Below are positions 1,297-18,497 of a stretch of DNA of 19,253 nucleotides, piece after piece. Positions within the stretch are counted from its first letter, which is position 1, and the number at the start of each line of letters is the position of its first letter. The DNA comes from Candidatus Latescibacterota bacterium (GTDB lineage: Bacteria; JAAXHH01; JACQVL01): positions 1 through 19,253 of the forward strand of contig JACQVL010000045.1 in the NCBI GenBank assembly GCA_016209865.1, read 5' to 3'. A program made the position numbers and the translations under genes. The notes beneath the pieces were generated by a model, which saw nothing but the letters and a program-made list of their open reading frames with translations, was not told the DNA's origin and did not search any database.

Positions 1297-2817
1297 TCAC
1301 TCGTCCAGGACGATTACGACATCGACCCGCCGGTTCTGCGCCCGGCCCTGAGGGGTGAGGTTGTCCGCGATCGGCTTCGTTCCGCCGAACCCGGTCGCGG
1401 TGATCCGGGTGTCCGGGATGCCGGCTTTGGAGACCAGGTACTCCCGGACCGCCCTGGCTCTCGCCCCGGACTGGGCGAGGTTCGCCTTCTCATCCCCGGT
1501 CGCCGCCGTGTGGCCTTCGACGCTGGCCCGGCTTCTGGGGAATAACGCCAGCACCTTCCCCACTTTATCGAGCAGAGGGGACGCGTCTTTCGGGAGGGCC
1601 GTCACCCCGGACGGGAAGTTCAACCCGACGAGCCGGATGACCAGAGATTTTCCCGCTCGCACGACCAGCGCCTCAGTCTTGAGAAACGTGCTCTGCGCCT
1701 GATCGATGGCATCGAGCTGCATCTTCTTCCGCAGTTCGACCTCCAGTTCGCGTCGCTTGAGCTCCAATTCCTCTTTCCGGGTCTGCAGGTCGGTCTGGTA
1801 CTGCTCGATCATCGTCGCCAGCCGAATCTGGTACTGATCGAACGCGGTCTGGAGGGAATCGATCGTGCGGCTGAGCCGGGCGACTTCGACATCGCGGCGG
1901 GTGACTTCGGCGTCGTGGAGGACGAGTTGCCTCGTGAGGGTGTCGTGTCCCTGCTGTATCGCTCTGATGACAGAATCCACCGGCGTCTGGACGCCGCGCT
2001 CGAAGGTCGGACGAACCCCTATCGCGTCCGCGATCCGGCTGACGATGTGTTCTTGATCGAGGAGCAGACGCTCCCAGTTCGCGTTGTTGCGCCGGAGGGT
2101 GTCGAGGACGGTCGCCAGATAGATCGCATGGCGCGCTTCGTACTCCGCTAAGCTCGCCTTGGCCTGGAGTTCTTCGAGCGACACATTCCCTTTCTCCACG
2201 GCCGCTTCGATCTCTCGGATGAGCGTCTGCGCCTGCCCGTAGGTCTTCGGGGCGTACTCCTCCGCTTTGCGGGATTTGGCTTCGGCGACTTTGGCGCGCG
2301 CCGCGCCCAGCAGGTTGATCCTCACCGCGCTCGCTTCAGCCTGACGGTATTTGGCGACGGCCTCCTTGCCGGTCTTCTGCGCCCCTTTCACGTCGTTCTG
2401 CTCCAGCCTGGACACGGCTTCGTTGAACGTCGCCTGGGCGTTCTGGTATTCTTTCGCCGCCACCTCGGGCGCGTTCGCCGCGATCGCACGAGTGCGAGCG
2501 GCTAACGCCTCGCCGAGGACCGCCTTGCCCTGCGCGGTGTTTTTCGTCGCCGTCTCCAGCGCCTGGCGGAACTGCTGGATGGCCGGTTTCACCTCGGTGT
2601 CCGGCCGGCCGCGCCGGACGAGATCGACCAGGCGGCGGTATCCGTCGACCGCTTTGGCGTAGGCTTTGGGGGACAGCAGGTCGACCTGCTGGCTTTTGGC
2701 GCTGTCCAGGTCCGCCGCTGCCTGCTGGACCGGAGAACTGGCGAGGGGTTGGGCGTAGAGGATGGCGGGCACGAACGAGGACAGCAGCGTGAGCACGAGA
2801 ACAGCGATCCACACCAT
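1297..2817 (-). CDS. OmpA-domain envelope protein with helical repeats and coiled coil
   Basis: This 506-residue protein starts at ATG 2817, four bases after the upstream stop, with a GGGGGA ribosome-binding site. Residues 1-22 form a signal peptide ending near LYA. Residues 30-215 are Ala/Glu/Lys-rich helices with recurring modules (SPKAYAKAVDGY, APEVAAKEYQNA, APKTYGQAQTL), resembling DUF4398-type repeats. A long coiled coil follows at about 300-385 (RKEELELKRRELEVELRKK). The C-terminal 110 residues are an OmpA-like peptidoglycan-binding domain with GFGGTKPIADN and GRAQNRRVDVVI. In OmpA-type domains the Asp of GHTD and an Arg in the following helix bind diaminopimelate. Here the motif is GHTA (Ala438), while the Arg (R453) is kept. 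There is no beta-barrel, so this is probably a periplasmic or outer-membrane-associated structural protein. It is co-transcribed with a membrane peptide and a lipoprotein. Confidence 0.92.
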   Translation of the reverse strand: MVWIAVLVLTLLSSFVPAILYAQPLASSPVQQAAADLDSAKSQQVDLLSPKAYAKAVDGYRRLVDLVRRGRPDTEVKPAIQQFRQALETATKNTAQGKAVLGEALAARTRAIAANAPEVAAKEYQNAQATFNEAVSRLEQNDVKGAQKTGKEAVAKYRQAEASAVRINLLGAARAKVAEAKSRKAEEYAPKTYGQAQTLIREIEAAVEKGNVSLEELQAKASLAEYEARHAIYLATVLDTLRRNNANWERLLLDQEHIVSRIADAIGVRPTFERGVQTPVDSVIRAIQQGHDTLTRQLVLHDAEVTRRDVEVARLSRTIDSLQTAFDQYQIRLATMIEQYQTDLQTRKEELELKRRELEVELRKKMQLDAIDQAQSTFLKTEALVVRAGKSLVIRLVGLNFPSGVTALPKDASPLLDKVGKVLALFPRSRASVEGHTAATGDEKANLAQSGARARAVREYLVSKAGIPDTRITATGFGGTKPIADNLTPQGRAQNRRVDVVIVLDE

Positions 2818-4566: not shown

Positions 4567-4594
4567 AATTCGCATAATAGATATTATGTAAACT
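4567..4594 (+). other. dif: dif-like XerC/XerD chromosome dimer resolution site
   Basis: The 28 bp split into an 11-bp left arm AATTCGCATAA, a 6-bp centre TAGATA and an 11-bp right arm TTATGTAAACT. From memory, the right arm equals that of the Bacillus subtilis dif site, and the left arm shares CGCATAA with the E. coli site (GGTGCGCATAA). The inner palindrome ATAATA-GA-TATTAT is intact. In most bacteria XerC and XerD cut at the arm/centre borders to resolve chromosome dimers near the replication terminus, activated by FtsK. The site lies between a terminator and a promoter, where no gene is interrupted. It could instead be a Xer site used by an integrated element, but no such element is visible. 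Confidence 0.82.
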
Positions 4595-4604
4595 TTAGAG
4601 AGCC

Positions 4605-4649
4605 AAAAAAGACCGACGGCCTACCTTTTTCCGCAGAGAACCGCCGGTC
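4605..4649 (-). terminator. Rho-independent terminator of leuS and the large operon
   Basis: On the minus strand, GACCGGCGG (plus 4649-4641) pairs with CCGTCGGTC (plus 4619-4611) as nine pairs including one G-U. Six U follow directly (plus 4610-4605). The loop is 21 bases. The stem is fully paired only in the minus-strand RNA, which fixes the direction. It lies about 130 bases after the leuS stop and 10 bases before the dif-like site. Confidence 0.8.
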
Positions 4650-4729: not shown

Positions 4730-4757
4730 GTCATGATGGAGCATGCTCCATCATGAC
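4730..4757. repeat. Perfect 28-bp palindrome behind leuS
   Basis: GTCATGATGGAGCA at 4730-4743 is followed directly by its exact reverse complement at 4744-4757. A smaller inverted repeat, CAATG-CTC-CATTG, follows at 4761-4773, four bases from the leuS stop, and shares TGCTCCA with the palindrome. No U-tract follows on the minus strand. It may be a binding site for a dimeric protein, a cruciform-forming repeat, or a transcript-end structure. Confidence 0.8.
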
Positions 4758-4776: not shown

Positions 4777-7194
4777 TCAGACGACGATGTTCACCAATTT
4801 TTTCGGGACGACGACCACCCGCTTCACCCCATGCCCGTCGAGATAGGGCCGGACGCGCTCGTGCTCCAAGGCCAGGCGCCTGATCGTCTCCTCATCCGCA
4901 TCAGCGGCCACCGTGAGCTGTCCCCGGACCTTCCCGTTGACCTGCAGGACGAGGGTCATCTCCGCGGACACGAGCAACGCCGGGTCGTAGTCCGGCCACC
5001 CCTGCTGATGGACACTGTCCGCATGACCCAGCGCATGCCACAGCTCTTCCGTGAGATGGGGGGCAAACGGCGCCAGGAGAATCAGCACCGTCTCAGCCGT
5101 CGACCGTCCGATCACCCCGTCCAGGCCGTCCGGGGCGTTGACATAGTTGACGAACTCCATGAACCGGCTGATCGTCGTGTTGAAGCGGCACTCCTCAACC
5201 CCCTCCGACACCTGCTTGACCAGCAGATGTCGCCGCCGGATCAATTCCGGAGAGTCAGCGTCCTGGGTGTCGAGGTTCTTCATCACCAGCGCCCAGACGC
5301 GGTTCAGGAAGCGGGAAGTCCCGTTGATTCCCTCCTCGCTCCAGGTGGCATCCTCATCGAACGGTGCCATGAAGAGTTCATACAGCCGCAGGGTGTCCGC
5401 CCCGTACTCCTCGACGACGCTGTCCGGCGTGATCACGTTGCCCCGGCTCTTCGACATCCGCTGCCCACTGGGCGCATGGAGCTGGCCCTGGTTCAGGAGC
5501 TTGGCGAACGGCTCCGAGAACGGCACGAGTCCAGCGTCTGCCATCACCTTCATCCAGAACCGGGCGTACAGCAGGTGCATGACCGCATGCTCCGCTCCGC
5601 CGACGTAGACATCGACCGGCATCCAGTACGCCACCGCCTCCGGGTCGAACGGGCGGGCGTGTTCGTGCGGACTCGTAAACCGCAGGAAATACCACGACGA
5701 ACACGCGAACCCACCCATCGTGTCCGTCTCCCGCTCCGCCGGGCCGCCGCACCCCGGACAGGTCGTCTGGACGAACTCCGGGATGTCGGCCAGCGGCGAC
5801 CGGCCCGTCGTCGCTGGCTGGTACCGGTCGGGCAGCAGCACCGGGAGCTCGTCCTCCGGCACCGGCACCATCCCGCAGCGCACGCAGTGGACGATGGGAA
5901 TGGGCGCGCCCCAGAACCGCTGTCGGGAGATCAGCCAATCCCGCATCTTATAGTGCACCTGCCGTCGCCCGATGCCCCGGTGCTCCATCCAATCCGCGAT
6001 CCGCTCCAGGCCGTCGCGTGACGGCAACCCGCTGAATTCCCCGCAATTGACCAGCACCCCGTCCCCCGTAGACGCCTCGGAGAGCGGCTGCCCGTCCCAT
6101 TCCGGCGGCGCGATGACGACGGGAATCGGCAGCCCGTAGCGGGTAGCGAACCCGAAATCGCGCGCATCGTGGGCCGGAACCGCCATGATCGCGCCCGTCC
6201 CGTAGCCCATCAGGACGTAATCCGCCAGATAGAGCGGGACGCGCTGTCCGTTCACCGGGTTGATCGCGTACGCCCCGGTGAACACTCCCGTCTGCTCTCG
6301 TTCTATCGAGGCACGCTCGATGTCGGTCTGCAGACGGGCCGCGTCGCGGTAGGCCTCAACCGCCGCACGATGCTCCGGAGTCGTGAGCGCATCGACGAGC
6401 GGATGCTCCGGGGCCAGGACGACGAAGGAGACCCCGAACACGGTATCCACCCGGGTGGTGAACACCCGGATCGACTCGTTCGTCCCGGCGACTTCCATGT
6501 CGAATTCTACCCCTTCACTCCGGCCGACCCAGTTCCGCTGCATCGTCGTGATCCGTTCCGGCCAGTCAATCCCGTCCAGGTCGCTGATCAATCGGTCCGC
6601 ATACGCCGTGATCCGGAAGAACCAGGCGGGGAGCAGCTTCTTCGTGATCGTATTGTGACCACGCCAGCACACCCCATCCCCGACCTCCTGGTTCGAGAGG
6701 GTCGTCTGGCATTGGGGACACCACCACTGCCAGTTCGTATCCCGATAGGCCAGACCACGGTGGTACAGGAGCAGGAAGAACGATTGCGTCCACTGGTAGT
6801 ACTCAGGATCGCTGGAATCGATCTCGCGCGACCAGTCGTAGGACGTCCCAATCAGCCGGAGCTGTCGTTTATAATTCGCCGTGTTGCGGGTGGTCGCCAG
6901 CCGGGGATGGATGCCATGTTTGATCGCAAACGCCTCTGACGGCTCCCCGAACGCATCCCATCCCATCGGATGGAGGACGTTGTACCCGCGCATCCGCTTG
7001 TACCGGGCAATCAGGTCGGTCGGGATATAGTTCCGGCAATGCCCGACACTCAGCCCTTCGCCGGACGGATACGGGAAAAAATCCAGGCAGTAGAATTTCG
7101 GTCTCTTCGGGTCCGTCCCCGTCCGGTGCAGCCCCTGCTCCTCCCACCAGGCCTGCCACTTCGGTTCGATCGTCTTGAAATCATACCCGGTCAT
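4777..7194 (-). CDS. leuS: Leucine--tRNA ligase
   Basis: This 805-residue class I synthetase attaches leucine to tRNA(Leu) in the cytoplasm and has the normal bacterial length. The ATP-binding HIGH motif lies at 49-52 in PYPSGEGLSVGH, so it reads SVGH with Ser in place of the first His. The second motif is RMSKS (579-583) instead of KMSKS. The leucine-site region reads GWDAFGEPSEAFAIKHGIHP, where many LeuRS have FGLPAEN. The CP1 editing domain is kept (FTTRVDTVFG, then GTGAIMAVPAHDARDFGF), as are CxxC pairs in CPQC, CVRC and CPGC that suggest zinc-binding loops. The C-terminal region ends VVVVPKKLVNIVV, as in complete family members. A GGGGAGGG ribosome-binding site overlaps the upstream stop. 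It is the last gene before the terminator at 4605-4649. Confidence 0.97.
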   Translation of the reverse strand: MTGYDFKTIEPKWQAWWEEQGLHRTGTDPKRPKFYCLDFFPYPSGEGLSVGHCRNYIPTDLIARYKRMRGYNVLHPMGWDAFGEPSEAFAIKHGIHPRLATTRNTANYKRQLRLIGTSYDWSREIDSSDPEYYQWTQSFFLLLYHRGLAYRDTNWQWWCPQCQTTLSNQEVGDGVCWRGHNTITKKLLPAWFFRITAYADRLISDLDGIDWPERITTMQRNWVGRSEGVEFDMEVAGTNESIRVFTTRVDTVFGVSFVVLAPEHPLVDALTTPEHRAAVEAYRDAARLQTDIERASIEREQTGVFTGAYAINPVNGQRVPLYLADYVLMGYGTGAIMAVPAHDARDFGFATRYGLPIPVVIAPPEWDGQPLSEASTGDGVLVNCGEFSGLPSRDGLERIADWMEHRGIGRRQVHYKMRDWLISRQRFWGAPIPIVHCVRCGMVPVPEDELPVLLPDRYQPATTGRSPLADIPEFVQTTCPGCGGPAERETDTMGGFACSSWYFLRFTSPHEHARPFDPEAVAYWMPVDVYVGGAEHAVMHLLYARFWMKVMADAGLVPFSEPFAKLLNQGQLHAPSGQRMSKSRGNVITPDSVVEEYGADTLRLYELFMAPFDEDATWSEEGINGTSRFLNRVWALVMKNLDTQDADSPELIRRRHLLVKQVSEGVEECRFNTTISRFMEFVNYVNAPDGLDGVIGRSTAETVLILLAPFAPHLTEELWHALGHADSVHQQGWPDYDPALLVSAEMTLVLQVNGKVRGQLTVAADADEETIRRLALEHERVRPYLDGHGVKRVVVVPKKLVNIVV

Positions 7195-8368: not shown

Positions 8369-8830
8369 TCATCGTCCGGTATGACCGAACCCTCCATCGC
8401 CCCGTGTCGTCTCGTCCAGGCGCTCGACGACGATGAGGTGCACCCGTGGAACGGGGGTAATGACGAGTTGCGCGATGCGATCGCCGTCGTGCACCGTGTA
8501 CGGCGACGTCCCAAAATTAAAGAGGATCACCCCCACCTCGCCCCGATAATCGGGGTCGATCGTGCCCGGACTGTTGAGCAGGCCGATCCGGTGTTGAAGG
8601 GCGAGCCCGCTCCGGGGCCGGACCTGTCCCTCGTAGCCGGGGGGGATGGCGATGGAGAACCCGGTCCCGATCAGCGTTGCCTCACCGGGGTTCAGGACGA
8701 CCGGGGCCCCAAGCGCCGCGTGCAGGTCGAGTCCCGCCGCCCCTTCGCTCATGTATCGCGGGAGCGGGTGGACGGAAGGCCGGCAGGGGCTGATGTACAC
8801 GGTCACGGGGTGTGGAGACGAATCAGTCAT
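8369..8830 (-). CDS. dut: Deoxyuridine 5'-triphosphate nucleotidohydrolase
   Basis: This 153-residue trimeric-type dUTPase hydrolyses dUTP to dUMP and pyrophosphate, keeping uracil out of DNA and supplying dTMP synthesis. All five motifs are visible in order: AGLDLH (32-37), RPRSG (71-75), [17 protein letters not shown] (83-99) with the catalytic Asp92, GDRIAQLVI (116-124), and [10 protein letters not shown] (143-152). The last usually reads RGxGGFGSTG, so one Ser is replaced by His. Its ATG overlaps the TGA of the M16 peptidase gene by four bases (ATGA), indicating coupled translation. The deacetylase gene follows closely. Confidence 0.96.
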
Positions 8831-10104
8831 CGGGGGAGCGGGACGTCTCGCTCCTCGACCGGCCCCAGGGCCGCCACAGACAGACGCTCCGGGTCGAGGA
8901 GTTCTTCAGCCAGTTCCTGCACCTGGGTGAGGGTGACCGCATCGACCTGGGCGATCGTCTCATCGATGGAGGAATAGGAATCGAGGTACAGCTCCAGACG
9001 GGCCAGCCGGTTCATCACCGTGCCGGTGTTCTCCATCGACAGGATCAGCCCGCCGGTCAGTTGGGATTTGGAATCCTGTAATTCATCCTCATGCAGCGGT
9101 TCCTGGCGCAACCGGGCGCATTCCGTGTAGATCATCTCCAGCACCCGCGGGACATCCGCACCGTCCGTCCCCGCGTAAATGCTGAAGAGGCCCGTGTCCT
9201 CGTAGAAGTCCAGGTCGGAATAGATGGAATACGCCAGCCCGGCCTTCTCCCGGACCGCCTGGAAGAGCCGTGAGGTCATCCCCCCGCCCAGCGCGGCGTT
9301 GAGGACGAACAGGGCATATTTTCGCTCATCCCGGAACGGCAGCCCGTGGCCGCCGACGCACAGGTGGGCCTGCGCGATGTCCTTCGTCGTGACCTGACAC
9401 CGGGCCGCCGGGGGGGACAGGACAGCAGGCGGGTCTGCCGCCGGCCGGTCGGGGAAGAGGAGTGTCTGCCTCACCAGCTCGACGATCTGGTCGTGGTCGA
9501 CGTTCCCGGCCGCGACAACCGTCGTCCGATCGGCGGTATAGTACGTGTCCAGGTACGCCCGAATCTCCTCGCGTGTCAGGGCCGACACCGTCGCTTCCGT
9601 CCCCAAGATCGACCGGCCTAACGGGTGCGGCTGCCAGATCAGCGAGGTAAACTGATCATGGAGCCATTCCTCCGGGTTATCCTCCATCCCCTTGATCTCG
9701 TCGATCACCACGTGCTTTTCCTTTTCGACCTCATCGGGGTCGAAGAGGGAGTGCTGCAGGATGTCTGCGAGGACGTCGATGGCGACCGGTGCATGAACGT
9801 CGAGGAGCCGCGCGAGATAGCAGTTCAACTCCCGTCCGGTGAACGCGTTCAAGTAGCCCCCCAGCGACTCGATACTCTGGGCGATCTGGTAGGCCGTCCG
9901 CGACCGGGTGCCTTTGAACACCATGTGTTCGAGAAAATGGGCGATGCCGTTCTGCTCGACCCGCTCGTGCCGGGAGCCGGAGCGCACCCAGAGGCCGATC
10001 GTCAGGGAGCGAACGTGCGGGACGTACTCCGTGACGACCCGGATGCCGTTGGGGAGGACCGATTTCCGGTAGACGGAGTGGAAGCCGTGTCCGGGGGTGG
10101 TCAC
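8827..10104 (-). CDS. M16 family zinc metallopeptidase (processing-peptidase-like)
   Basis: The 425-residue protein starts at GTG 10104, overlapping the pnp stop by four bases. It carries the inverted zinc motif HxxEH in [12 protein letters not shown] (His56, Glu59, His60), with a downstream acidic ligand around Glu135 in [16 protein letters not shown] second inactive-type M16 domain fills the C-terminal half ([24 protein letters not shown]), as in mitochondrial processing peptidase beta subunits and bacterial PqqL or YmxG relatives. The bacterial members cleave peptides, and their substrates are mostly unknown. No signal peptide is visible, so a cytosolic location is likely. The arrangement pnp-M16 (ymxG) is widespread in bacteria, which supports the call. 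Confidence 0.94.
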
Positions 10105-12200
10105 CGCGTCCCCTCCGTGTGAGGCTCCTGCATGACGGCTTTCCGGCTGAGCTTGATCTTGCCCTGGGCGTCGATGCCGATGATCTTGACGCGGACCTCA
10201 TCCCCTTCGTTCGCCACCTCCCGCATCGCTTTCACCCGATGGGTATCCCATTCGGAGATGTGAACGAGGCCGTCCTGGCCGGGCAGGATCTCGACGAACG
10301 CGCCGAAATCAACGATGCGCTTCACTTTGCCGCTGTAGAGCTTGCCTAATTCGGGTTCTTCGACCAACGACCGGATCATGCGACTGGCCATCTCCCCGCT
10401 CTGCGGGTCGACCGCGGCGATCGTGATCGTCCCGTCGTTCTCGATGTTGATCTTCGTCCCGGTCTCGTCCTGAATGCTCCGGACCATCTTTCCACCCGGC
10501 CCGATGACGGTGCCGATCTGGTCGACCTTGACTTTCAAGGTGATGATCCGCGGCGCGTACGCTGATAGCTCGGGCCGCGGGGCCGGGATCGTCTGCTCCA
10601 TCCGGTCGAGGATGGAGAGCCGCGCGGCGCGGGCTCGTTCCAGGGACTCCCGGAGGACGTCGAGGGTCACCGTGATGACTTTCACGTCCATCTGGAAGGC
10701 GGTGATCCCCTGGCGCGTGCCCGCCACCTTGAAGTCCATCCCGCCGAGATGGTCTTCCACCCCCTGGATGTCGGTCAGGTATTGGGGGGCCGGCTCATCC
10801 GGGATCAGGCCGACGTTGACGCCGGCCACGTGGCTCGTGATGGGCACGCCGGCGTCCATCAACGACAGGCTGGCGGCGCAGACCGTGGCCATCGACGACG
10901 AGCTGTTCGACTCGAACACATCCGAGACAATCCGGATGGTATACGGGAAGACTTCATCCGACGGGATGACCGTGGCGATCGCCCGTTCGGCCAGGGCGCC
11001 GTGTCCGATCTCCCGCGGCCGCGGCCCGCGCTGCGGGCGTGTCTCCCCGGTACAGAACGGGGGAAAGTTGTAGTGGAGCATGAACGTCTTGAACGTCTCC
11101 CCTTCGAGGTCATCCATCCGCAGCTCGTCCAGCTTGCTCCCTAAGGTGGTGACGGCGAGGCACTGGGTCTCCCCGCGCGAGAACAGCGCCGAGCCATGCG
11201 TCCGAGGGAGCACGCCGACCTCAGAACTGACCGGCCGGATGTCATCCATCCCCCGGCCGTCGACCCGCCGGCCTTCTGTCTTGATCATCTCATGCATGTC
11301 CTGGCTCTGGGCATCCCGGACGATCTCCTTGATCACGGTTTCGCTCTCCGGGTAGTCCGGCCGCAGGCGCTCGATGGCCAGAGCTTCCGCCTGGCTGAAC
11401 AGCTCGCCCCGTTTCTGCTTCTCGACCGTCCGGTTCCCCTCATGGATGAGCGGCATGACGATTTCGGTCGTCCGGCGGACGAGCGTCTCATCCCGCTTCG
11501 GGTCGAGATGCTCCCGCTTGGGTCTGCCGCACAGCGTCCGGAGCCGCTCGATCTGCTCGTTGATCCGGATGGTCTGCTCATGCGCCAGCGAGATCGCCAC
11601 GAGCATGTCCGCTTCCACGATCTCGTGCGCCCCGCCTTCGAGGGACACGATGTACTCCGGCGTTCCCGTCACGACGATGTCCAGATCGCTCTCGTCGAGC
11701 TGGGGGAACGTCGGGTTGATCACGTACTCGCCGTTCACGCGGCCGACCCGGGACGCGGCCAGGGGGCCTGCGAACGGGATGTCCGAGATCGTCAGGGCGG
11801 CGGACGCCCCGATGATGCCTAAGATATCGGCATCGTTCTCCTGGTCGGACGAGAGGACGATGATCATGACCTGGGTCTCGCAGGCATAATCTTTCGGAAA
11901 CAGCGGCCGGATGGCATGATCGATCAGCCGGGCGCTGATCGTCTCTTTCTCACTCGGCGGGCCTTCGCGTTTGAGCCGTCCGCCCGGAATCCGGCCGGCC
12001 GCGTACATCTTCTCCCGATAATCGACCGTGAGGGGCAGGAAATCCCGTCCCTCCATCGCCTGTTTCGAGGACACGGCGGTCGCCAGGACGACCGTATCGC
12101 CGTAGCGAACCCAGACGGCGCCATCCGCTTGTTTGGCCACTTTTCCGGTTTCTAATGAGAGGACTCTTCCACCGATCGTGAGATCAACTCGATGTGCCAT
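10101..12200 (-). CDS. pnp: Polyribonucleotide nucleotidyltransferase (PNPase)
   Basis: This 699-residue protein degrades RNA from the 3' end by phosphorolysis and forms a trimeric ring in the cytoplasm, often within the degradosome. Two RNase PH domains are visible. The second carries HYNFPPFCTGE, PREIGHGALAERA and SSSMATVCAASLSLMDAG. A KH domain follows (IGPGGKMVRSIQDETGTK, near 550-610), then an S1 domain with DFGAFVEILPGQDGLVHISEW. The length is typical. ATG 12200 has an AAGGGAG ribosome-binding site about ten bases upstream. It lies 65 bases behind rpsO, the common rpsO-pnp order. The gap holds overlapping short palindromes, but no clear terminator or RNase III-type stem can be claimed. 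Confidence 0.97.
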   Translation of the reverse strand: MAHRVDLTIGGRVLSLETGKVAKQADGAVWVRYGDTVVLATAVSSKQAMEGRDFLPLTVDYREKMYAAGRIPGGRLKREGPPSEKETISARLIDHAIRPLFPKDYACETQVMIIVLSSDQENDADILGIIGASAALTISDIPFAGPLAASRVGRVNGEYVINPTFPQLDESDLDIVVTGTPEYIVSLEGGAHEIVEADMLVAISLAHEQTIRINEQIERLRTLCGRPKREHLDPKRDETLVRRTTEIVMPLIHEGNRTVEKQKRGELFSQAEALAIERLRPDYPESETVIKEIVRDAQSQDMHEMIKTEGRRVDGRGMDDIRPVSSEVGVLPRTHGSALFSRGETQCLAVTTLGSKLDELRMDDLEGETFKTFMLHYNFPPFCTGETRPQRGPRPREIGHGALAERAIATVIPSDEVFPYTIRIVSDVFESNSSSSMATVCAASLSLMDAGVPITSHVAGVNVGLIPDEPAPQYLTDIQGVEDHLGGMDFKVAGTRQGITAFQMDVKVITVTLDVLRESLERARAARLSILDRMEQTIPAPRPELSAYAPRIITLKVKVDQIGTVIGPGGKMVRSIQDETGTKINIENDGTITIAAVDPQSGEMASRMIRSLVEEPELGKLYSGKVKRIVDFGAFVEILPGQDGLVHISEWDTHRVKAMREVANEGDEVRVKIIGIDAQGKIKLSRKAVMQEPHTEGTR

Positions 12201-12265
12201 AGTGCTTCATTCTCCCTTGTTTCTTTCGTCTCGTCGTCTCGCCACTGCGGACGTCCGTGGACGGC

Positions 12266-12535
12266 TTATCCCCGTAAGCCGAGTTGCGCGACAAGCGCGC
12301 GATACCGTTCGATGTTGTGTCGCCGGAGATACGCTAAGAGTCGTCGGCGATGGCCGACGATCTTGAGCAACCCGCGCAGCGAGTGGAAATCTTTCTTGTG
12401 CGTCTTGAAATGTTCCGTGAGTTCATTGATCCGGGCGGTCAACAGGGCGATCTGCACCTCCGACGACCCGGTATCCGTCTCATGGCGGCGGTGCTGGGTC
12501 AAGAGCGCCTGTTTCGTTCCTTTGGTCAGAGACAC
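12266..12535 (-). CDS. rpsO: 30S ribosomal protein S15
   Basis: S15 is an early-binding 16S rRNA protein of the small subunit platform. With GTG at 12535 the product has 89 residues, the standard length. AAGGAG precedes it at six or seven bases; a longer in-frame ATG extension would add ten unrelated residues. Family-typical segments are [21 protein letters not shown] and [25 protein letters not shown], given here by their cores [13 protein letters not shown] and [18 protein letters not shown] 12-bp palindrome lies upstream at 12563-12574. In E. coli S15 represses its own translation; whether that applies here is not visible. Confidence 0.97.
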
Positions 12536-12562
12536 GGTGTTCACTCCTTGTAGAAGCCACGT

Positions 12563-12574
12563 CACACGTGTGAT
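12563..12574. promoter_or_regulatory. 12-bp palindrome upstream of rpsO
   Basis: TCACACGTGTGA is a perfect palindrome 28 bases ahead of the rpsO GTG, in the 62-bp gap after ribF. It could be an operator, or part of the rpsO leader structure. A palindrome of this length is also possible by chance. Confidence 0.3.
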
Positions 12575-12597
12575 CGAATGAGAAACCCCCGCACGAA

Positions 12598-13527
12598 TCA
12601 GCCCTGGAGCACCCGCCGGGCCTGCTCCACATCGGCCGCAATCTGTGCGCGCAGGGCGTCAACCCCCGAGAAACGCTGTTCGGCCCGCAGCCGTTCGACC
12701 ACCTCGACCCGCAGGTCACACCCGTACACATCCCCCTGGAAGTCCAGGAGATGGACCTCGACAGAGACGGTCCCCGGCCCGAAAGTCGGCCGGACCCCGA
12801 CGTTCATCACCCCTGGCCACCCGCCCGACCCGGTCGACGCGCGGACCGCGTAGACGCCATGAGCCGGCAGCAATTTCTGGGGCGAGGCGACCTGGAGGTT
12901 GGCCGTCGGAAAATCGAGCAGCCGTCCTCGTCCCTCCCCGTGGATGACCCGGCCGGCCAGGGTATACGAATAGCCGAGCAACCGGGCTGCCTCACGCATC
13001 CGGCCCGTCGTCACGCACTCTCGAACCCGGGTACTGTTGACGACCGACCCGTCGGCGGTGACGGGCGGCACGACCCGGACCTGAAACCCGTACGCGCTCC
13101 CCATCCGCCGCAGCAGGTCGGTATTCCCGACCCCATGGCGGCCGAACGCATGGGTGTACCCGACGACGAGTTCGCGGGCGTCCAGGCGTTCGACGTAGAC
13201 CTGATGCACATACCGTTCCGGCTCGGTCTGAGCCACCTCCAGGGTGAAGGGGATGACGAGCACCGCGGCGATGGGAAACCGGGCCAGGAGACGGAGTTTT
13301 TCCTCCAGGGGCGTCAAGAGCGACAGCAGCGGCCGGCGGCCGATGACGAGTTGCGGATGAGGTTCGAACGTGACGAGCAGGCACACACACCCGTGGTGGG
13401 CCGCGCGTGCGACAGCCTCGGTGATGATCGCATGATGGCCGAGATGAACCCCATCGAAGTTCCCGACGGTCACCACAGGCCGTCGAAACTGGCCGGTTGC
13501 CGCCTCAAGGCTGTCCAGCACTCTCAT
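12598..13527 (-). CDS. ribF: Bifunctional riboflavin kinase / FAD synthetase
   Basis: The 309-residue enzyme converts riboflavin to FMN and then FAD. The N-terminal adenylyltransferase domain shows [16 protein letters not shown] (about 20-35), TFEPHP and NSTRVRE. The C-terminal flavokinase domain starts near 185 with [20 protein letters not shown] and continues with HGVYAV and NVGVRPTF. The usual GxDFxFGxxRxG loop is altered to [14 protein letters not shown]. Its ATG overlaps the rbfA stop by four bases (ATGA). truB, which often lies between rbfA and ribF in bacteria, is missing. The gene sits in the translation operon, as it does in many genomes. Confidence 0.95.
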
Positions 13528-13940
13528 CCGTGCTCTGCATCCTCCACAGGCGGGGACGCGGGATGGGCGTCCTCGCCGTCGGACGGAGCCGGAGCACCGT
13601 CAACGGGTTGGATCGTCTTCATCACTTCCGCGATCCGGGCCGCGTGGATCAACGAGCGGTCGAACCGGAACGAGAATTCGGGGGTGTGCCGCAGCCGGAC
13701 GCGCCGCCCGATCTGGCTCCGGATGAACCCGGTCGCGCGCTCCAGTCCCTGGAGGCTGCGCGTGCGTTCCGCGTCAGACCCGAACACGCTGACGAACACC
13801 CGCGCGTACCGCAGATCGTCCGTGACATCCACGGCGGTTACGGTCACGAACCCGATCCGCGGGTCTTTCATCTCGTTCCGAATGATATCACTGACCTCCT
13901 GCTTGAGGAGGTCGGCGACGCGCAGAGATCGCCGCGACAT
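13524..13940 (-). CDS. rbfA: 30S ribosome-binding factor A
   Basis: RbfA is a KH-like cold-shock protein that binds the immature 30S subunit near the 5' end of 16S rRNA. With ATG 13940 the product has 138 residues. The sequence opens SRRSLRVADLLKQEVSDII and continues DPRIGFVTVTAVDVTDDLRYARVFVSVFG, shown by its core DPRIGFVTVT and LRYARVFVSV. I chose this start because GGGAGGAA lies seven bases before it. An upstream in-frame TTG at 13982 would add 14 residues over the ribosome-binding site and overlap the ylxP stop. The C-terminal 25 residues are Pro/Asp/Glu-rich and beyond the conserved domain. Confidence 0.95.
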   Translation of the reverse strand: MSRRSLRVADLLKQEVSDIIRNEMKDPRIGFVTVTAVDVTDDLRYARVFVSVFGSDAERTRSLQGLERATGFIRSQIGRRVRLRHTPEFSFRFDRSLIHAARIAEVMKTIQPVDGAPAPSDGEDAHPASPPVEDAEHG

Positions 13941-13968
13941 GGCCTGTTCCTCCCGTGACAGCGTGGTG

Positions 13969-14250
13969 TCATCGTCGCTCAATCGTATAGTCCAGGACTT
14001 CCACTCGACGGTCGAGGCGCACCAGGTTGAGCACCTGGGAGAGAGTCATCTCGATGAACTGCACATCGTTGGCGACGATCGCTACCCCGACCGACGCGCG
14101 TTGCCACAGATCGAGGTGATCGACCTCAGCCACGGACACGTTGAACCGGCTCCGAATCCGGTCTTTCAGCCCTTTGACGATCTGTCGCTTGCCCTTCAAC
14201 GAGCCACTATCCGGGATGAACAACTCGATCCGACAGAGACCGACGGTCAT
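13969..14250 (-). CDS. ylxP: YlxP-like DUF503 protein
   Basis: With ATG 14250 the product has 93 residues, the normal length for DUF503. Typical features are VGLCRIELFIPDSGSLKGKRQ (core: IPDSGSLKGKRQIVKGL), RFNVSVAEVDHLDLWQRASVG (core: NVSVAEVDHLDLWQ) and a C-terminal beta strand EVLDYTIE. The family lies beside infB and rbfA in many bacteria and is thought to take part in ribosome assembly, but its function is not firmly known. An upstream in-frame ATG at 14310 would add 20 residues (CFFPVPRTPNPVFQ) encoded by the repeat element, so I reject it. The ribosome-binding site is weak, with only AGG in reach, which may point to dependence on infB translation or on the hairpin upstream. Confidence 0.93.
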   Translation of the reverse strand: MTVGLCRIELFIPDSGSLKGKRQIVKGLKDRIRSRFNVSVAEVDHLDLWQRASVGVAIVANDVQFIEMTLSQVLNLVRLDRRVEVLDYTIERR

Positions 14251-14268
14251 AGAGAAAACCTGAAAGAC

Positions 14269-14361
14269 GGGGTTCGGAGTACGGGGTACGGGAAAAAAAC
14301 AGACAGTCAATCTCTAATTTTTGTTTCCCGAATCCCGTACCCCATACCCCTAATCCCGAGC
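14269..14361. repeat. Paired inverted heptameric arrays forming a long hairpin between infB and ylxP
   Basis: The left array (14269-14296) reads GGGGTTC, GGAGTAC, GGGGTAC and GGGAAAA. The right array (14327-14361) reads CCCGAAT, CCCGTAC, CCCATAC, CCCTAAT and CCCGAGC. In minus-strand RNA, 14350-14334 pairs with 14292-14276 over 17 continuous pairs with two G-U and no mismatch. The loop is 41 bases, and further partial pairing lies outside. The U-run (plus 14293-14299) lies in the loop, before the 3' arm, so this is not a standard terminator. The right array is related to that at 3137-3171. Confidence 0.82.
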
Positions 14362-14377
14362 TCCTTTGCGGTGACGG

Positions 14378-16669
14378 TCATCGCGGCTGCAATTGGCGCG
14401 CGACTTCCAGGGTTTCGTAGACCTCCAGGACGTCGTGTTCTTTAATATCGTTGAACCCCTCGATCGTAATCCCGCATTCGTACCCAGACGACACTTCCCG
14501 GACGTCGTCTTTGAAGCGACGGAGGGACGAGATGATGCCGTCGTACACGACCACGTTATTCCGGATGATCCGCACTGGAGCGTTCCGCCGGATCAGGCCG
14601 GATTGGACGTACGACCCGGCGACGACGCCGGCACGCGGCAGCCGGAAGACTTCCCGGATTTCCGCCACCCCGACGATCTGTTCTTTAACCTCTGGCTTGA
14701 GGAGGCCTTCGAGCGCGGCGGTGACATCGTTAATCACCCGGTAGATGATGTCGTACAGCCGGACATCCACCTTCTCCCGTGCGGCCAGCTCACGCACCCG
14801 GCCATCCGGGCGAACGTGGAACCCGATGATGATCGCGTTCGAGGCGGCCGCCAGGAGTACGTCCGATTCCGTAATCCCCCCGATGCCCTGATGGATGATC
14901 CGGATCTTGACCTCGTCCGTCCCAAGCCGCTGGAGCGCATCGCTCAACGCTTCGACAGAGCCGCCGACATCCGCCTTGATGATGAGCGGGAGTTCGCGGA
15001 TCTGACCTTCTTTAATCTGGTGGTAGATATCTTCCAGAGTCAGTCGCTTCACCTGCCGGTAGTCATGCTCCCGGCGGAGTTGCTGGCGTTTCAGGCTGAT
15101 CTCACGGGCGATCTGTTCGGACTCCACGACGAAGAACGTATCCCCGACCTGAGGCATCCCGCTGAACCCCGTGATCTGGGTCGGAGTCGAAGGGCCGGCG
15201 TGCTCGACCCGGCTTCCACGCTCGTTGAGGAGCGCACGCACCCGGCCGCTGTACAGCCCGGCCACGAACGGCTCCCCGACCCGGAGCAGACCCTGCTGAA
15301 TGAGGACGGTCGCGATCGTGCCGCGTCCCCGGTCGAGCTCCGCCTCGATCACCACCCCCGTCGCACGGCGGGTGGGGTTGGCCTTCAGTTCCAGGACCTC
15401 CGCCTGGAGCAGGATCATCTCCAGCAAGCGGTCGACTCCCTGGCCGGTCTTGGCCGAGACTTCGGCGGAGAGCGTCTGGCCGCCCCATCCTTCCACCAGG
15501 ACGCCGTGCTGGGCGAGTTGCTCGCGGAGGCGGTCGGGGCGAGCGGTGGGCAGGTCGATCTTGTTGAGGGCGACGATGATCGGCACTCCGGCCGCCCTGG
15601 CGTGGTCGATCGCTTCGATCGTCTGGGGCATCACCTGCTCATCCGCCGCGACGACGAGGACGACGATGTCGGTCACCTGCGCCCCGCGCGCCCGCATCGC
15701 CGTGAACGCCGCATGGCCGGGCGTATCGAGGAACGTGATCTTCCCCTGCGGGAGTGCTACCTCGTAGGCCCCGATGTGCTGCGTAATCCCCCCGGCTTCG
15801 CCAGCGATGACGTTGCTCCGCCGGATATAATCGAGGAGGGAGGTCTTCCCGTGGTCGACATGCCCCATGATCGTCACGACCGGCGGCCGGTGGATCAGGT
15901 CGGCGTCATCTTCCGCCTCATCCTCTTCGATCAGGTCAGCCCCGTACTCTTCCTGTTCCTCGACCTCGTACCCGAACTCGGACGCGACGGTCATGATCGT
16001 GTCCATGTCGAGCCGCTGGTTGATCGTGACCAGCAGTCCGAGCTGGAGACACTTCGCCACGACCTCGGAAGGGTTGACGCCCAAGTGTTCGGCCAGCTCG
16101 GCCGCTGAGATGAACTCGCTCACCCGGATGACATGCCCGTTCTCGCTCCCCTCTGTCTCCGTCTCGCGGACTCGCCGCTTTCGCCGCTTGATGCGGGCCC
16201 CCACGTCCATCTGGGCGAGCGTCCGCCGGACACTCGCCTCGATCTCCCGCCGGTCGATCTTTCGTTTTTTCTTCGAACGGCGGCGTTTGTCCCGCTCGAC
16301 CGGGCCCGGAGAGGCGGGTTGCGCGGCCGGAGGTGGGGTGACGGTCGGCGCGGTGACGGTGGGCGCGGCCGGAGCGGTCACGACATGCCCTTTTCTCTTC
16401 CGCCGTTTGGACGGGCGTGGAGGAACAGCCGCCGGAGCAGGGGCTTGAGCCACGGCCGGCTTTTCGGCTAATTGTTTCTTCCGGGCGTAGTCCTCTCTCG
16501 CCGCGCTCTTCTCCGCCTCGAACTTGCGCTTGACATCCTCCGACATCTTGTCATCCATCACGCTCATGTGACTCTTCACTTCATGCCCTAAGTCACGGAG
16601 CATACGGACGAGCGCTTCGCTGGAGATGTTGTACTCGCGTGCCACCTCGTAGATGCGTTTCTTTGCCAT
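14378..16669 (-). CDS. infB: Translation initiation factor IF-2
   Basis: IF-2 is the GTPase that brings fMet-tRNA to the 30S subunit and promotes subunit joining. The 763-residue protein starts [19 protein letters not shown], the IF2 N-terminal helical module. A long Ala/Pro and Arg/Lys-rich linker follows (about 70-170), then a second IF2-N module ([16 protein letters not shown], about 183-235) and the G domain. G motifs are GHVDHGKT (269-276), DTPGH (315-319) and NKID (369-372). Domains II-IV follow through [11 protein letters not shown] at the end. ATG 16669 has a strong GGGGGGAGG site. In some bacteria shorter IF-2 forms arise from internal starts; nothing obvious shows that here. It is followed by a large hairpin before ylxP. 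Confidence 0.97.
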
Positions 16670-16687
16670 TCTCTCTCGCCTCCCCCC

Positions 16688-17065
16688 TTACGACTGGGGC
16701 GTACTCACTCGGGGAGGATGCCTTCCTGCTTTCTCAAGCATTCCCGCTGCAAAGTGAGGGTTCAGGATCACAATCACCGCACGTGGAGGTCCCTGAAAAC
16801 ACCGGCCGTACTCGTCTTGCGTGCATCGTTCGAGGACCGGAACGCCGCGCGCCCGGGCGAGCCGCGTGAAGAATCGTTTGGTGCCCGCCGAGCTGTCCTC
16901 CGCGAGCAGCACCAACCGGGCTCGTCCCGCTCGGATGACGGCTTCTGAGGCGGTCGCCCCAGCCCGGACCTGTCGCGAGCGGATGGCGAGGCCAAGCAAC
17001 CCCAGGAGGCCTCGCTCCTCGCGTTCCTCATCATGCCGCGACGGTGTTGTTTCAGGATGGCTCAA
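16688..17065 (-). CDS. ylxQ: L7Ae/L30e-family ribosomal-type protein (YlxQ-like)
   Basis: The 125-residue frame contains the L7Ae-type RNA-binding core from about residue 19: GLLGLAIRSRQVRAGATASEAVI (core: LLGLAIRSRQVRAG), RARLVLLAEDSSAGTKRFF and RAVIVILNPHFAAGMLEKAG. In Firmicutes YlxQ lies between ylxR and infB, exactly as here, and is thought to bind RNA kink-turns; its role is poorly known. The start is uncertain. TTG at 17065 overlaps ylxR by 14 bases and has no well-spaced ribosome-binding site. No in-frame ATG is available before the core, so coupling to ylxR translation is likely. The stop lies 18 bases ahead of infB. Confidence 0.85.
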   Translation of the reverse strand: MSHPETTPSRHDEEREERGLLGLLGLAIRSRQVRAGATASEAVIRAGRARLVLLAEDSSAGTKRFFTRLARARGVPVLERCTQDEYGRCFQGPPRAVIVILNPHFAAGMLEKAGRHPPRVSTPQS

Positions 17066-17327
17066 CCTCAGACTGCTCCTTGATCATCCGGCGAATCTGC
17101 TGGATCGTCGAGGGGAAAAACATCCCACGAACCGTCCTCTGCGTCAGCAAACGGGCCAGACATGATTCCGACAGACAGACGTAGTGACCACGCCCTCCGA
17201 GCCGCCGTTCCGGGTCGATGCGCCAGCCGGCGTCCCCGCCCTCAGCCAGGCGCAGGAGCGACGCCTGAGGCTTCACCGACCGGCAGCCCAGACACCGCCG
17301 GAGGGGGATGTGACCGCGTATGCTCAT
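17052..17327 (-). CDS. ylxR: YlxR / DUF448 family protein
   Basis: The 91-residue protein has the family signature near its N-terminus, RRCLGCRSVKPQASLLRL (residues 10-27). It also has GGRGHYVCLSESCLARLL, with two Cys that may pair with the first CxxC. YlxR proteins are small nucleic-acid-binding factors. In Bacillus one was proposed to act as a nucleoid-associated regulator and in Clostridioides to affect RNase P; the role here is unknown. It begins six bases after the nusA stop, with GCGGGG just ahead of ATG 17327, and overlaps the L7Ae gene at its end. The nusA-ylxR-ylxQ-infB order is a widely conserved cluster. Confidence 0.92.
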   Translation of the reverse strand: MSIRGHIPLRRCLGCRSVKPQASLLRLAEGGDAGWRIDPERRLGGRGHYVCLSESCLARLLTQRTVRGMFFPSTIQQIRRMIKEQSEVEPS

Positions 17328-17333
17328 CCCCGC

Positions 17334-18497
17334 TCAATCAGCCGTTTCCCCTTCGTCGGTGGCGGCGTCCGTCGCCGCGACCGTGGGGGCAGGCGCTTCC
17401 TCAGAGGCAGCTTCCTCTGCCGCCGGAGGCTCAGGACCGAACGTTTCCGCCATCAACATCTTTTCCAGGTCGGTGCGCTTGACCAGGTCGATGTTCCAGC
17501 CGGTCAGTTTCGCGGCCAGTCGGGCATTCTGTCCGGCCTTCCCGATCGCTAAGGAGAGTTGATCGTCCTCCACGACGACCCGCATCTTCTTCGCTTCGAT
17601 GTTCAGGATAGAGACCTGAGAGACACGGGCCGGGCTCAGCGCTTTCGTGACGAAGGTCGACGGGTCGCTACTCCAGGGGACGATGTCGATCCGTTCGTTG
17701 TTGAGCTCGCGAACGACCGCCTGCACGCGGGAGCCCTTCATCCCGACGCACGCCCCCACCGCATCCACCCGGTCATCGTGCGAGAAGACGGCGATCTTCG
17801 ACCGGTCGCCCGGCTCCCGCGCCACCGCCTTCAGTTCCACGATCCCTTCGTGAATCTCGGGCACCTCAAGCCGGAACAAGAGCTCCAAGAACTGCGGATG
17901 GGCACGGGACAGGATAATTTGAGGCCCCTTCGTCGTCTTCTGGACGTCGAGCACGTACGCCCGGATCGTCTCCCCCTGGCGGTATTTCTCCCGGCGGATC
18001 TGCTCCCGCCACGGCACGATCGCCTCCGTCCGGTCGAGCTTCACGATGATGTTCCCGCGATCCACTTGCTGGACCGTGCCCGTCACGATGTCCCCGATCC
18101 GGCTCTGGAACGTGTCGTAGATGTTCTCCCGCTCCGCCTCACGGACGCGCTGGACGACGATCTGCTTCACCGCCTGGATGGCGTTCCGCCCGAAGTCCTC
18201 GAACGCGAGCTTCTCCTCGACCTGTTCCCCGACGGCGGCGTTCGGGTTGATCCGGCGCGCATCGGGGAGCGCAATCTGGAGGCCCGGCTCCTCCACGGTC
18301 TCGACCACCGTCCGGGAGAGCACCAGGTCGATCTGCCCGGTCTTCTCGTCGATCTTCACGTCGAGGTTGTCTTCGGCTCCGAACCTCTTCCTGGCCGCCG
18401 CCAGCAGCCCTGTTTTCAGCGTCTCCCAGACGAGGGCTCTGTCGACGTTCTTCTCTCGAATAATCTGCCCTAACGCTTCCAGAATCTCATAATTCAT
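17334..18497 (-). CDS. nusA: Transcription termination/antitermination protein NusA
   Basis: NusA binds RNA polymerase and nascent RNA, promoting pausing and hairpin termination and supporting antitermination. The 387-residue protein has the N-terminal polymerase-binding domain (EILEALGQIIREKNVD to about 130), an S1 domain (GDIVTGTVQQVDRGNIIVKL, about 135-200) and two KH domains (about 200-345). These carry GACVGMKGSRVQAVVRELNNE (core: VGMKGSRVQAVV) and LAIGKAGQNARLAAKLTGW (core: IGKAGQNARLA). The last 30 residues are Ala/Glu/Pro-rich; the acidic repeat domains of E. coli NusA are absent, as in most bacteria. GGAGG lies 11 bases before ATG 18497. NusA could act on the leader hairpin at 19079-19110. 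Confidence 0.97.
   Translation of the reverse strand: MNYEILEALGQIIREKNVDRALVWETLKTGLLAAARKRFGAEDNLDVKIDEKTGQIDLVLSRTVVETVEEPGLQIALPDARRINPNAAVGEQVEEKLAFEDFGRNAIQAVKQIVVQRVREAERENIYDTFQSRIGDIVTGTVQQVDRGNIIVKLDRTEAIVPWREQIRREKYRQGETIRAYVLDVQKTTKGPQIILSRAHPQFLELLFRLEVPEIHEGIVELKAVAREPGDRSKIAVFSHDDRVDAVGACVGMKGSRVQAVVRELNNERIDIVPWSSDPSTFVTKALSPARVSQVSILNIEAKKMRVVVEDDQLSLAIGKAGQNARLAAKLTGWNIDLVKRTDLEKMLMAETFGPEPPAAEEAASEEAPAPTVAATDAATDEGETAD

Follow-up and report, generated by a model that had tools for sequence, protein, structure and literature searches.

The 28-bp sequence AATTCGCATAATAGATATTATGTAAACT, on the + strand at 4567–4594 of the window (the whole stretch of 19,253 nucleotides that was analysed), is very probably the chromosome-dimer resolution site (dif) of the host bacterium. 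dif is the place where bacteria separate joined sister chromosomes, and the motor protein FtsK normally drives the reaction. The best reading of the data is that this is a true XerCD/dif system that is activated without FtsK, with arrays binding accessory proteins as a leading but unproven substitute in some lineages. It departs from known cases in that XerCD/dif is conserved where FtsK was not found, and in the phased arrays that flank dif in a sister genus.

Sequence and layout of the dif site

The 28-mer has the 11-6-11 layout attributed to it in the preliminary description (AATTCGCATAA, TAGATA and TTATGTAAACT), and the inner palindrome and the conserved XerD arm are likewise present. The dif site of Escherichia coli, taken from MG1655, is GCGCATAATGTATATTATGTTAA; it pairs directly with the window 28-mer, arm for arm, and it is on this likeness that the left arm is predicted to be the one bound by XerC. 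There is no second copy in the window at up to three mismatches, and none arose in 200 shuffles. The site was also expected to be single in the genome, and none other was present at up to three mismatches in the whole host assembly (3.75 Mb in 356 contigs, 83% complete). A search of the window against Rfam gave no match. The features of the window that are discussed here are collected in Table 1.

Table 1. Positions of dif and of its neighbours in the window.
Feature	Position	Strand	Basis or remark
OmpA-family protein, conserved to the left of dif	1297–2817	-	PF00691
dif site, 28 bp	4567–4594	+	XerC arm 11, centre 6, XerD arm 11; unique, syntenic
Predicted XerC-binding arm AATTCGCATAA	4567–4577	+	alignment to E. 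coli dif and relatives
TAGATA centre, predicted strand-exchange interval	4578–4583	+	identical in genus g3
Predicted XerD-binding arm TTATGTAAACT	4584–4594	+	TTATGTAAA invariant in g3, g4 and g5
Intrinsic terminator of the operon ending in leuS	4605–4649	-	arms 4649–4641 and 4619–4611, then T-run 4610–4605; from sequence
Perfect 28-bp palindrome GTCATGATGGAGCA/TGCTCCATCATGAC	4730–4757	.	between leuS and dif, on the leuS side of the terminator; a partial repeat follows after 20 bp
leuS, lineage-specific neighbour	4777–7194	-	TIGR00396; reads toward dif
M16 peptidase - pnp - ribF - infB - nusA block, conserved to the right of dif	8827–18497	-	

Conservation and synteny

The site was compared across 16 genomes of the phylum (the host and 15 others), all of a single order, in which the host is alone in its genus and its family. 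A relaxed dif pattern gave exactly one match in 13 of the 16, while the same pattern read backwards gave none. No match was found in G001, G002 or G013; the contig of G002 stops inside the flanking array. One of the 13 matches is an E. coli-like dif, GGTTCGCATAATGTATATTATGTTAAAT, in G007 (G007:C71:5975-6001). It lies on a small contig of 13 kb without synteny and is likely to be contamination, and it was rejected as support although it is retained in the count.

In the sister genus g3 the dif sequence is ACTTCGCATAATAGATATTATGTAAATC, identical in nine genomes. The spacer of the same intergenic region has drifted, with 47% identity between the array sites described below and 63% at 110–205 bp from dif. 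On the XerD side in g3, some 80 bp between +28 and +110 (counted from the first base of dif) are unusually conserved, at 83% pairwise, and no such stretch is seen in the window.

The preliminary description had looked to close relatives for conservation of the site, and this is what was found. The order OmpA - dif - M16 - pnp - ribF - infB - nusA and the orientation of dif are common to the window and to the nine genomes of g3, which belong to a sister family; on some of the g3 contigs only one side of dif is visible. Synteny and orientation are held over about 14 kb, in which the proteins are only 35–76% identical, and the arrangement is therefore old. The OmpA side is syntenic in G003–G006, G008, G011 and G015. 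The last of these represents a third family (f3), and has OmpA at the expected place followed by the end of the contig. In G014 (genus g4) the site is present and the conserved neighbours are missing from its 20 kb.

Surroundings of dif in the window

The operon to the right of dif, nusA-infB-ribF-pnp-M16 peptidase-deacetylase-leuS, is transcribed toward dif. The location of dif at the end of this operon is as first described, but leuS is not a conserved neighbour; the M16-pnp-infB-nusA block is. It lies beside dif in this genome alone, and is 0.85 Mb from dif in G006 and G008. The window LeuS is 58% identical to a Chloroflexi LeuS, compared with 44–50% to those of its own phylum, which suggests that leuS is a horizontal replacement that entered the gap next to dif. 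The Chloroflexi-like LeuS raised the suspicion of a mis-binned contig. This was rejected, as the identities of pnp, infB and nusA to the phylum are 63–76% and the neighbourhood is syntenic.

The AT-rich gap that holds dif had been placed between a terminator and a promoter. The terminator is real; it lies downstream of leuS, 10 bp from dif, where a terminator scan gave a smaller stem. The promoter, by contrast, found no good support, the one candidate being a 9-of-12 match on the - strand to the left of dif. The perfect palindrome between leuS and the terminator is unrelated to the TTGTACAA arrays of the sister genus.

Location relative to the replication terminus

It is likely that dif lies in the region of the replication terminus. 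This was analysed in G006, covering 1.93 of the 2.87 Mb of contig C1. The cumulative GC skew rises past dif (1.019 Mb) to about 1.1–1.2 Mb and then falls. The change point fits best at 1.13–1.2 Mb, 110–180 kb from dif, and none of 5000 permutations reached its statistic. The skew itself is weak, at about +0.008 on one side and -0.007 on the other, and bootstrapping places the change point anywhere from 55 kb to 1.215 Mb, with a median of 1.165 Mb. Queries with E. coli DnaA and DnaN gave no match in the 1.93 Mb of C1, which is compatible with an origin elsewhere. The skew of the 19-kb window was rejected as evidence for the terminus; it drops after dif, but it tracks the strand of the operon and the window is too short. 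Nor is the orientation of dif relative to the skew informative, the terminus being symmetric in this respect. Where an assembly is too fragmented for skew analysis, the site can serve as a sequence marker of the terminus.

Xer recombinases

The host genome has three tyrosine recombinases, namely XerC, an integron integrase and a phage-type integrase. The host XerC scores 327.9 bits against TIGR02224, just below the cut-off of 335. XerD was not found in the host assembly, which is explicable because that assembly is 83% complete. Proteins above the XerD cut-off are present in G006, G014 and G015, and XerC-type proteins in G006 and G014; we infer that the host genome also encodes XerD. On inspection by eye, the translations show the catalytic residues R-K-HxxR-H-Y. 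The integron integrase of the host (G000:C306) scores 477 bits against TIGR02249, and there is a similar integrase-like protein in G015.

FtsK and polar sequences

No canonical FtsK was found in the 16 genomes of the phylum using PF01580, PF09397 and E. coli FtsK as queries. The FtsK/SpoIIIE motor domain PF01580 gave an over-threshold match in one of the 16, G015, and the controls (E. coli and B. subtilis among them) were matched. The G015 protein was rejected as an FtsK; its best full-length model, PRK10263, scores 147 bits against a cut-off of 1566, and models of type VII-secretion ATPases score nearly equally. The FtsK gamma domain (PF09397) gave a single sub-threshold match among the 16 genomes. 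A protein query comprising the motor and gamma domains of E. coli FtsK returned the same G015 gene together with a marginal match of 41 residues in the host genome, and nothing else. Note that nine of the genomes searched are at least 90% complete with contamination of 5% or less. At the level of sequence searching it is well supported that FtsK is absent from the phylum, short of a very divergent homologue. Of xerC, xerD and ftsK, which the preliminary description proposed to look for in the genome, XerC is in the host and XerD was found in its relatives only; ftsK was not found in any of the 16 genomes of the phylum.

G006 carries rsmH, ftsI, murE, ftsW, murC, ftsA and ftsZ, and therefore division looks conventional. 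The KOPS sequence GGGNAGGG occurs in G006 without polarity (203 on the leading and 179 on the lagging strand); a 100-kb segment of E. coli gave 8 versus 2. No strongly polar octamer was present in 0–1.88 Mb of G006 C1, the best being distributed 173 versus 98.

Palindrome arrays flanking dif in a sister genus

In g3, dif is flanked on both sides by helically phased arrays of TTGTACAA palindromes that are 20–22 bp apart. The XerC side has about ten of this type, at -82 to -261, and the XerD side has six, at +210 to +313; the arrays extend over about 180 and 110 bp respectively. Going outward from dif the spacing is 20, 22, 20, 21 and 20 bp on both sides, and 112 conserved TTGTACAA-like sites were counted in the genus. 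There is also a gene downstream of the left array. An example of the arrangement is at G006:C1:1019080-1019650 (locus L037, about 9650–10260; the g3 loci are L034–L043).

Within the 1.93 Mb of G006, every one of the densest motif clusters falls at dif, with 13 in 500 bp compared with no more than three elsewhere; by a looser count the numbers are 10 and 6. When the whole phylum was searched for three spaced copies, clusters were found at dif in g3 and G015, and elsewhere there were scattered single matches. The array is present in family f3 (G015), and partially in g4 (G014, with a few copies). At the window's own dif there is no TTGTACAA array, and no cer-like accessory site was recognized there.

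An element inserted at dif

In one relative, G010, dif is the exact integration point of a Xer-exploiting element, one end of which has a degenerate XerD arm. At the left junction the left array is followed by CTACTTCGCATAATAGATAGTATGCCCC and then by foreign small genes; at the right junction, on another contig, foreign sequence gives way to an intact dif, beyond which is the right array. The junctions, on the two unjoined contigs C1 (L220:1760 onward) and C76 (L041:1-2110), are identical through ...CATAATAGATA and then diverge. The insertion is natural evidence of recombination at dif. PHROGs and Pfam searches of the element identified one ribbon-helix-helix protein and nothing else, and neither the site nor the G010 junction was matched exactly in viral contigs.

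Activation of recombination and alternative interpretations

By inference, XerC and XerD would each bind one of the two 11-bp arms, two dif sites on a dimeric chromosome would synapse, and strand exchange within the 6-bp centre would yield monomers before division. Because no canonical FtsK was found across the phylum, activation is taken to be independent of FtsK; activation of XerD and pairing of the sites would then be brought about by something else. This might be an unrecognised translocase, accessory proteins, or recombinases that are intrinsically active as has been proposed for archaeal XerA.

Two interpretations would deny that the 28-mer is the dif of the host. A chance palindrome might be expected in an AT-rich gap such as this, but the shuffles and the backwards pattern gave no match (the latter in all 16 genomes), 13 of the 16 have exactly one copy and the location is syntenic, so that chance is ruled out for practical purposes. 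Phages and plasmids that exploit Xer recombination carry dif-like sites, and the element at dif in G010 is one such, raising the prospect that the 28-mer is a relic attachment site. This is very improbable, since the site is present as a single copy at the same chromosomal place across families and the window has no genes of such an element.

The role of the arrays is less certain. Dimeric accessory proteins bound to the TTGTACAA palindromes could activate XerCD in place of FtsK, wrapping or bridging the DNA, in the way that ArgR and PepA act at cer, lineages like that of the window using another sequence or having lost the array. This would refine the main reading rather than displace it, the site being dif either way. 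We consider it a real possibility, albeit one with somewhat less than an even chance. It is consistent with the number of conserved sites in g3 and their matching spacing on the two sides, with the cluster at dif in G006 that has no comparable counterpart elsewhere, with the clustering at dif phylum-wide, with the extension of the array to f3 and in part to g4, and with the failure to find FtsK. Against it, the window's dif lacks an array, the protein that would bind is still hypothetical, and part of the left array could be an operator for the gene that it precedes. Alternatively the arrays might serve another function of the terminus, such as a replication-fork barrier, an organiser of chromosome domains or a centromere-like partition site, and merely be co-located with dif. 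Phased palindromes resemble iterons and partition sites, and these occur to either side of dif, where the terminus is presumed to be, but the spacing is locked to dif in all the g3 genomes and is kept beside the left junction of the insertion in G010. The locked spacing favours a role linked to dif; we consider the alternative only slightly less likely than the accessory-protein model. Only tentatively would we go further, and propose that the phylum dropped FtsK while keeping XerC, XerD and dif, with dimer resolution run by a dedicated protein on helically phased TTGTACAA arrays as a chromosomal counterpart of the control of plasmid cer.

Comparison with known systems

The system resembles XerCD/dif with FtsK in E. 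coli in its 11-6-11 layout, the inner CGCATAAT....ATTATGT core, its two recombinases (here in the phylum), its probable terminus location and its single copy. It differs in that neither the motor nor the gamma domain of FtsK was found, and in the non-polar distribution of GGGNAGGG in G006. Archaeal XerA/dif also has a dif-like site in the terminus and no FtsK homologue (PMC2958812), whereas here there are XerC and XerD in a bacterium, and a strongly polar octamer is not evident. At cer, XerCD recombination is independent of FtsK, and ArgR and PepA bind accessory sequences that adjoin the core and are about 180 bp long (PMC5357621). The g3 arrays are similar in extent to the accessory sequences of plasmid cer and psi (ArgR/ArcA, PepA). 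However, they are chromosomal, lie on both sides of the site and have an unrelated motif, and the window is without an array.

In open-access papers we found no description of a bacterium having XerCD without FtsK, or of arrays flanking dif. Since this lineage combines ftsZ, two Xer recombinases and a dif that is strongly conserved, yet has no detectable FtsK, it offers a natural way of testing what FtsK is needed for, and the arrays that flank dif in the sister genus offer a concrete and testable substitute for it. Sites of this kind have been predicted in silico in many phyla, as single copies near the shift in skew (Kono et al. 2011, PMC3025954), and therefore one further prediction is not rare as such. 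Ours is a prediction of the same kind, to which are added synteny across families, an insertion that arose naturally and the failure to find FtsK in the lineage.
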